Notes under the pieces: model-generated
What the model was told of the DNA's origin: nothing
The model's database searches: none
What the model saw: only the letters and a program-made list of their open reading frames with translations
In this document: positions 16,401 to 19,400 of the stretch, piece by piece
Layout: each line of letters begins with the position of its first letter
How positions within the stretch are numbered: position 1 is the first letter of the stretch
Made by a program: the position numbers and the translations under genes
Assembly: GCA_028565635.1 (NCBI GenBank)
Contig: JAOXYB010016520.1
Location: 4,057 to 36,235 of the forward strand
Length of the DNA: 32,179 nt
Direction: 5' to 3'
Origin: Phoronis ovalis
Taxonomy: Eukaryota; Phoronida; Phoronidae

Positions 16401-19400
16401 GTGATATAAATTCTCAGGTCAATTTCAAAATGTCAAAATATGAACCCATCCCTGTATCAAAAATTTAACGTTCAAAATACTGTTACTTCTTTTGTGAGAT
16501 ATTTTACATTACTTTCCATGAAAAATTTAACCCATTCTATATCTTCCCAAGGGACGTTTTGTACAGATTTCAAATATCATACTCATGCTAAACCGCAAAT
16601 TGTGGTATCAATATTCATCAATAAAGGCGACCCATATAAGCAGCACAACCCGGTCAAACCACACACTAAGAATTCCCAACCGGAATTATATCTATATAGA
16701 CATTACCCTACAGCTGAACACTTACGCTTGATGTTCCAGAACCTGATTCTTCTTGATTTTTCTCAGGGTAAACACCAGCTCGGAGAAATGATGCCTTCCA
16801 ACTGTCCAGCTCATCTAAACCTTCACAGGATAACTCCAACTGCTTGTAGTCCTTGTAGACATTTCTGTAAGACAAGTATTTAGTAACTACAGTCATACCT
16901 AGCTTTATGGTTAACTGCTTATCTTTAAATGTATGGAGCAATAATATTAGAACAACTACACACAGCACATTAATTTTAACACGATGGTGACCTATTATTT
17001 AGACAAATGGCCATATGCATTAATCAGGTGTAGTTGATTGCCTGCGGTAATCAGACATTTCATCATGCATGTTGACCACAGTTGAGACTAATAATTTAAA
17101 AATCAAGTTAGTTATAATAGTCACAGTAACAAGAAACTTTCTCCTTCAGTTTGATCCAGAGAGGAATGAAGATAACTAGGCTGTACCTTGTATCTGTGTT
17201 AAAGAGAGCAAACTTCTGTGATTTGGACATGAATCCTGCTTCTAAATCTCTCAATCTAATGTTGTCATGGGGAAGCATGTACTTCTTATCTTTCTCCTAC
17301 CAAAAAGCATGCAATATAAATAAAATAATATGCAAACATTGTACCTGTTTTCTGTGTTAAAGAGAGCAAATTTCTGTGATTTTGACATGAATCCAGCTTC
17401 CAAATCTCTCAGTTTAATGTTTTCATGGGGAAGCATGTATTTCTTATCTTTCTCCTGCAGAAAGCATGGCAAATAAAAATTAGGGTTAGTCAGTTAGTGT
17501 AGAGGCTAAGCCATTTGGTTGAACAAATCCCAAGTGTCCATAGTGCAAATCTCTGTTGAGACCATGATTTTGTATCTCAAGATTTTTCTTTTTAGTCACC
17601 ATCATTACATAATGCCCACTTGCAACAGAGGAAAAGTTAGAGAGCTGTGAGTCAAATTAGGCAACAGTTTGAACTAAGTATTCTATGATTAAAAAAAAAG
17701 TGTTACACCTAATTTAGCATGTGGCTACAAGGACTAAGTAATATCAATATACCATTTCTTTTTTAATTTACTAGTTTGCCAGTGTATAGTTTATACAGAG
17801 GATTCTGATGTCATAAAAGCGCCATGTAGTGATGCCACTTAATTTAGCCTACTTTGAATTAATTCCAAACAAACACAGTACAAAGAGTTGGAAATCATCA
17901 TAGGTAATGTATAGAATCATGTGTTTATTGTCATTGCATCATGTGTTACAATATACAATCAGATATATTAATAAGAAAATGAAATAGAAGATATAAATAC
18001 AGTTGAACAGAAACTTGAGATCAAATATCATGCAAGTACATGTATGGTGACTACTCTGATATTGCCTGTAACATTATTCAATAGATAATATATATACAAC
18101 ATACACCCATAGTTATGTTGGGAATACTATACAGCAAGATGTAGATCAACTACGTAATACCCGGGGGGCAGTCAGTATGAAAGTGGGTATCCATGTTCCA
18201 ACATGGCTTTTCAAAAAAGCCCCTAACGAAGTAAATTCTGTTAAAAATACACCCCTAAGGAAGTGACTTTTGGGAAAAAACACCCCTAACGAAGTGTCAC
18301 ACCTCCAAAAAACCACCCCTTTTCATGATTTTAGCCAAAAAACAGACCCTAAGCATTACGCGCCAGTGGTTCAAAAAACATACCCTTTCATGCGAAATTT
18401 TGTTGGAACATGCGTACCCACTTTCATATTGACTGCCTCCCCCGGGGGTAATGCACCAACATCCCATACTGTACCTCCTCATCCTTAAACCAAGACAAGG
18501 TTTCAGCTGTGAGAACAAACCAGAATTCCTTTGAACCTCCTTTCATAAAACTAATATTGTGCAGAGTTAACCAGCCTTTTCGTATAACTTGGTTGCCTAA
18601 CTTTTGTTGTTTGCGACTGGATTCTGATTTCTGCTGTGCACTACAAGAAACAAAATTTCAAATCAAAAAGACACTAATATGCACACACATTGTGTTATGA
18701 TGTTCTCATAATAGGAAAAGTGCATAAAAACCGTGTGAAACAAGTACAGCCATGTTTACATTTTTAACTGGTGCCTAACAAGCCTATGAAACATTTTAAC
18801 AATATGTGAGTTACAATGTATACTTGGAATTTGAACTTCAATATCTATTGTTGCTGGCAATAGTAACACGATTCCATTCATAAATGAACAGCATGCATCT
18901 ATATGCACACTACCAGAAGCTATTTTATTTTTACATACTTAAAAGTAATAAGATATCAAAGAACGAAAAAAATTGAAGAAATAAAACAAAACTAGAAATT
19001 TGCAAGCTTAAGAGTTAATATGTTAATTCCAGAGTCAAACTAAACCAACCTTTTCCAGCAGCTGTAAGGTTAAATGTTACATGAATGAATTAATTAGGAT
19101 ACACACATGTGCTGATGCTTTCTGTCATTTGCACCCAGGCAAATTATACAGCACAATAGAATAATTATGTGTATGTAATATGACACATTCTGTTTCATTA
19201 TTTACTAGACATTTCTTAAAAACATTCCTAGCAGGCATCTAACTTTGTAGCTTCCACATGTTTTCAGTCCTGGTACTACCCTGTGAGTATCTCCTATAAT
19301 ATATAACGTACAACTTACTTTGCAAATCCTATGAAGTCTTCATGGTTGGTGTTCATATAGGCCAGTTGAATGTCTACAAGCAGTGTCAGCTGGTCTTTAG

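Follow-up and report, generated by a model that had tools for sequence, protein, structure and literature searches.

The window considered here, a stretch of 32,179 nucleotides of DNA from the phoronid Phoronis ovalis, contains a dynamin gene in which the part encoding the PH domain includes two adjacent and nearly identical exons. In keeping with a phoronid, and thus lophotrochozoan, source, the mitochondrial COX1 from this assembly has 90% identity with that of Phoronopsis harmeri, followed by 87% with an unnamed sequence and 85-86% with gastropods. The question raised by this locus is whether these exons, designated 12a and 12b, are alternatives of which each transcript receives only one, how such an arrangement arose, and what it would mean for the protein. 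On the basis of their sequences and surroundings, they can with good confidence be interpreted as a mutually exclusive exon pair in a classical dynamin.

The Dynamin Gene

A model of the gene comprising exons 1-17 (11621-29027, minus strand) was obtained by tblastn and exon tracing with a human DNM1 sequence as the tblastn probe; the last coding exon or exons lie outside the model. It is open from end to end and encodes 834 residues with exons 12a and 14a and 835 residues with 12b and 14b. The DNM1 sequence aligns with the model by tblastn from the GTPase through the GED, and exons 16 and 17 are proline-rich; the gene has the GTPase, middle, PH, and GED regions and the proline-rich tail that characterize the classical dynamins. 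A search of the genome for the GED located three places, both copies of exon 14 and one on another contig (L003). The latter was considered as a second classical dynamin gene and set aside, since by eye it appears to be of the DRP1 type. The best explanation offered here, which, taken as a whole, we consider likely to be correct, places the exon 12 copies in the only classical dynamin gene that the phoronid genome yielded.

The intron after exon 4 opens with GC rather than GT (22184-22185, minus strand), and the intron between exons 1 and 2 contains a degenerate array of 79-base units (24654-25039). Upstream of the dynamin gene and on the same strand, two open stretches (31200-30389, minus strand) match the V-ATPase G subunit, the second of them just below the curated cut-off. 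A 391-residue open frame on the plus strand (57-1229) has, by eye, a zinc-finger-like spacing of Cys and His near its start. No RNA family has a match within the window.

Layout and Reading Frame of the Exon 12 Pair

Exon 11 (18475-18640), the upstream partner, ends in phase 0, and exon 13 (16726-16864), the downstream partner, supplies the base that completes the last codon of either 12a or 12b. Between them, and like them on the minus strand, alignment and the gene model place exon 12a (17345-17454) and exon 12b (17187-17296), each with 110 bases, running from phase 0 to phase 2, and bordered by an AG acceptor and a GT donor, so that the adjacent homologous exons of equal phase and length described in the earlier note are indeed present. 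They are identical at 99 of 110 bases; the 11 differences include six silent changes, and four of the 36 complete codons encode different residues (E/D, K/R, E/D, and N/T), which are the substitutions previously listed. The identity of 33 of 37 residues reported at that time is the sum of 32 of 36 complete codons and the arginine completed by exon 13. The repeat extends over 124 bases at 89% identity, including a few flanking bases, and chance similarity was rejected for this reason. The exon 12 stretch matches one place in the assembly (77.4 Mb in 4805 contigs), and a search with 84 query segments revealed no copy in the window above 22.7 bits beyond those already known. Pfam gave no match for the two 36-residue exons alone, as is expected for pieces of a domain. 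In the intron before 12a, at about 18440-18160 on the minus strand, there is an element that, by eye, recalls a short mobile element: its flanks are inverted, and its ends resemble CCCCCGGG.

The two copies are separated by 48 bases (17297-17344), as had been noted, and the gene model places this distance far below those of the 17 other gaps in the gene (249-5301 bases). The gene shows no more than this difference in length, and the earlier statement that 48 bases is too short for removal in most animals goes further. Joining 12a to 12b produces a stop at codon 606, and skipping both produces one at codon 568, in agreement with the earlier view that including both copies or neither breaks the frame; in the frame listing, reading through the 48-base gap leads to a stop as well. 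Joint inclusion would thus be hindered or useless. The stronger claim of strict mutual exclusion is favored by the tandem copies, the logic of the frame, and the crowding, but it should be recognized that loss of frame removes proteins and not transcripts, so that it would not by itself make 12a and 12b exclusive at the RNA level. A survey of human mutually exclusive exons (PMC5740500) regards steric interference as possible when donor and branch point are separated by <50 bases and assigns 57 of 629 clusters (9%) to this category; 377 (60%) contain lengths that are not divisible by three. Because the whole gap is 48 bases and 110 is not divisible by three, both safeguards of the human clusters fit 12a and 12b.

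Versions of Exon 12 in Related Animals

The earlier note had advised a search for the second copy in relatives. Two protein searches, from which the best 120 of 5991 and the best 120 of 5725 matches were taken, provided 157 different dynamins; none of these listed matches is nearly identical with the window dynamin. Exon 12 was cut out of 147 of the 157, and of the 10 that were unparsed, Lottia, P0274, and two Lineus models were read by eye, which disclosed no new Lineus version. Among the matches listed, predicted isoforms provide two or three versions of exon 12 in 13 named species, 12 molluscs and the nemertean Lineus. Three versions each are predicted for Haliotis rufescens, Gigantopelta, Mercenaria, Mytilus edulis, and M. 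galloprovincialis and two each for Haliotis asinina, Dreissena, Littorina, Physella, Pomacea, two Saccostrea, and Lineus; in addition, a model from Elysia crispata strings two versions in tandem. The boundaries of exon 12 in the mollusc and nemertean isoforms are, at the residue level, the same as in the phoronid. The implication that a pair at this PH-domain position would be without precedent is therefore not supported, since the predicted isoforms of these species swap exactly exon 12.

When isoforms were compared within species (20 pairs), exon 12 was found to differ at 13-22 of its 36-38 residues, as compared with four of 36 in the phoronid, although the gene and the exon are the same. 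Apart from gaps of 0-22 columns, 16 of the 20 pairs have no substitutions outside exon 12. The exceptions are Haliotis rufescens X4/X5 (26 substitutions), Gigantopelta X1/X6 (1), Pomacea (91), and Littorina (6); the Pomacea value reflects a different model, and the six in Littorina match a swap of exon 15. Twenty models from insects, amphioxus, and starfish, in six groups, have one version of exon 12 per group, and the lophotrochozoans Ylistrum and Tubulanus, each represented by several models, also have one version only. The dynamin-2-like model of Alosa pseudoharengus (P0003) contains the PH domain twice in tandem, a duplication that could be genuine or could reflect a faulty gene model.

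Origin of the Pair

The tree for exon 12 contains 72 segments and 37 columns, and its bootstrap had not settled; each distinct segment was entered once, and models that could not be parsed and segments with lengths other than 36-39 residues were omitted. In this tree, 12a and 12b are sisters (100/95), and the Lineus copies form a group of their own (89/95), with values short of what the tree counts as strong support. One molluscan version brings together 19 rows (96/94), the named rows being bivalves and gastropods. The range of this version indicates that exon 12 clusters can be old, as appears to be the case in the molluscs. The phoronid pair would represent either a separate duplication or homogenized copies, and the simplest reading of the tree is that exon 12 may have been duplicated on at least three separate occasions. 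In the preferred account, the pair would have been born by tandem duplication in the phoronid line, apparently apart from the pairs of molluscs and Lineus. As judged against 2000 shuffles, the 48-base gap is similar to the final part of the intron that precedes 12a (P 0.004), a result that tandem duplication predicts for the 3' part of the gap only; it is not similar to the first part of the intron that follows 12b (P 0.39).

Alternatively, the pair could go back to an ancient lophotrochozoan cluster that molluscs and nemerteans have in common with the phoronid and in which gene conversion keeps the phoronid copies alike. This would account for the multiplicity of the same exon in molluscs and Lineus and for the molluscan version that spans bivalves and gastropods, and the similarity of 12a and 12b, which falls sharply outside the exon and ends near its edges, also fits gene conversion. 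However, the window copies are sisters and the Lineus copies lie together, albeit in a short and unsettled tree, and the 84 queries revealed no extra copy of exon 12 in the window. An inherited cluster is for these reasons considered unlikely, but it is to be taken seriously.

Divergence of the Copies

Silent changes account for six of the 11 differences between 12a and 12b, as compared with ∼18% silent sites by our own count (binomial P 0.007), and three methods give dN values of 0.037-0.060 and dS values of 0.23-0.44. The silent excess and a dN well below dS suggest that, barring sequence exchange between the two, the second copy is not free to drift. These values bear on the possibility that 12b (or 12a) arose recently and sees little or no use, as a young relic whose sites are intact and in which decay has not begun. 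The closeness of the copies (89% over 124 bases) is what such a relic would display, and the mildness of the four residue changes, three of which are E/D or K/R, counts against a working switch. Nevertheless, the excess of silent changes, the absence of any stop or indel, the intact state of both splice sites, and the predicted alternative use of the same exon in related phyla combine to make an unused copy rather improbable.

Proposed Mechanism

If 12a and 12b are mutually exclusive, as we favor, exon 11 would be joined to one or the other, and either would then skip to exon 13. The 12a donor and 12b branch point would be <50 bases apart, which should make the 48-base gap hard for the spliceosome to remove, and a transcript that was double, empty, or gap-retaining would encounter an early stop and be destroyed or useless. 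Splicing factors would set the ratio of 12a to 12b by tissue or stage. The copies are a real and probably working exclusive pair that is ordinary in kind. The same early stops, which follow from joint or no inclusion, might instead serve a regulated "poison" splicing, in which the copies are joined or both skipped on purpose so that the stop results in less dynamin; but joining should be hard across a gap so much shorter than the 17 others, and regulation of this type needs no conserved second coding copy, so that we regard it as very improbable. An assembly artefact, such as two alleles placed side by side, is conceivable in a draft of 4805 contigs but can hardly be credited, because the silent divergence is, in our judgment, too high for alleles, the duplication covers about one exon, with a gap of 48 bases, and similar pairs are found in relatives.

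Exons 10a and 10b of the vertebrate dynamins are located in the middle domain/stalk, whereas the phoronid pair is in the PH domain; exon 9 of the window, the counterpart of the vertebrate 10a/10b exon, is single in the gene model. According to a study of DNM2 (PMC9652393), 10a and 10b are mutually exclusive and 12b and 13b are cassettes. The vertebrate 10a/10b and, as predicted, the phoronid 12a/12b have in common that two homologous exons in the same gene family contribute one per transcript; DNM2 12b and 13b are likewise alternative exons, and they lie in the half of the gene that holds the phoronid pair. However, DNM2 12b, as described there, is a 10-residue in-frame cassette between the PH domain and stalk, the peptide of which is near the PH-stalk interface, and not a duplicated PH exon; the label "12b" shared with the phoronid exon is a coincidence. 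More generally, the mammalian dynamins each have two to four alternatively spliced sites, as stated in a further paper (PMC9653092).

The PH Domain and Lipid Binding

Alignment to solved structures shows that exon 12 corresponds to DNM1 residues 558-593; by numbering, it starts just after residues 555-557 of variable loop 2 and includes Lys562 of strand β4. A study of the dynamin PH domain (PMC8563704) indicates that the PIP2-binding lysines are clustered in variable loop 2 and strand β4 and that the K562E mutation essentially eliminates PIP2 binding. The location of the pair in a lipid-contact region, as the earlier note had it, is thus partly correct, but lysines 559, 561, and 562 are identical in 12a and 12b. 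The changes between the copies are at DNM1 positions 568, 571, 592, and 593, the last two of which we take to be in variable loop 3. Among mollusc within-species pairs with segments of equal length (10 pairs, eight species), position 593 differs in 10 of 10 and 592 in six of 10, whereas 568 and 571 each differ in four of 10. Since the PIP2 lysines are unchanged, we infer that the differences would more probably adjust the surroundings of the same PIP2 site than alter which lipid is bound. Both products would bind PIP2 through the same lysines and would differ in the nearby strand and loop, chiefly at residues 592-593, with perhaps slight differences in how firmly they grip the membrane or in how the PH domain docks on the stalk.

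Exons 14 and 15

A second pair in the same gene, absent from the earlier note, consists of exon 14a (14404-14547, minus strand, 144 bases) and exon 14b (13775-13921, minus strand, 147 bases), both running from phase 0 to phase 0 and both identified by alignment and the gene model, with 482 bases between them. They align with DNM1 residues 649-693, where the GED part of the stalk begins. Of 144 aligned bases, 47 differ between the copies, as do 11 of 48 residues, and the silent sites are saturated; this pair therefore looks older than that of exon 12. The frame is maintained with one copy, both, or neither, and joint inclusion was not found to be hindered or useless, so exclusivity would need another cause. 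Exon 14 is a tandem duplicated exon, and no more is claimed for it. Two copies are present within one protein in three Tubulanus models and one Paralvinella model; a model from the moth Choristoneura, which repeats a larger block, was left out of this count. With 81 query segments, no copy in the window scored above 22.7 bits beyond those known. The window copies are not sisters in the exon 14 tree, but none of its forks is strongly supported.

Exon 15 (13035-13091, minus strand, 57 bases) is single in this gene model, and a second copy was not found in the window. It is doubled in predicted models from Elysia crispata and Batillaria and differs between predicted isoforms in Littorina and in Pomacea (these cases rest on proteins P0253, P0015, P0074, P0079, P0035, and P0094). 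It may thus be a third duplicated dynamin exon, in gastropod models.

Implications for Dynamin in Lophotrochozoans

Searches of the open-licence full-text literature disclosed no paper recognizable as a description of a duplicated PH exon in dynamin, and the available text of a paper on planarian dynamin (PMC4154299) yielded nothing on exon choice. The PH-exon position of the pair does not appear in the papers searched, and the pattern of repeated use predicted for lophotrochozoans is unexpected; the kind of pair is itself ordinary. It is tentatively suggested, as a reading with slightly less than an even chance of being right, that in lophotrochozoans tandem duplication has a hot spot at dynamin's PH exon, with at least three independent hits (in molluscs, a nemertean line, and a phoronid line), exons 14 and 15 being duplicated also in some phyla. 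Vertebrates keep three dynamin genes; if the suggestion is true, lophotrochozoans would instead tune membrane grip and the stalk by splicing a single gene, and that of the phoronid could alone encode four PH-by-stalk combinations.

The PH domain of dynamin has been studied mostly by mutation, of which K562E is an example (PMC8563704). If the exon swap is real, these animals would provide natural series of functional PH variants, with the remainder of the protein unchanged, and hence a ready means of testing how fission is tuned by membrane grip and by PH-stalk docking. If it is confirmed that one and the same exon has been duplicated repeatedly, this would be a clear example of evolution by splicing that follows a predictable course, and the phoronid pair, being young and nearly identical, would show an exon switch near its start.
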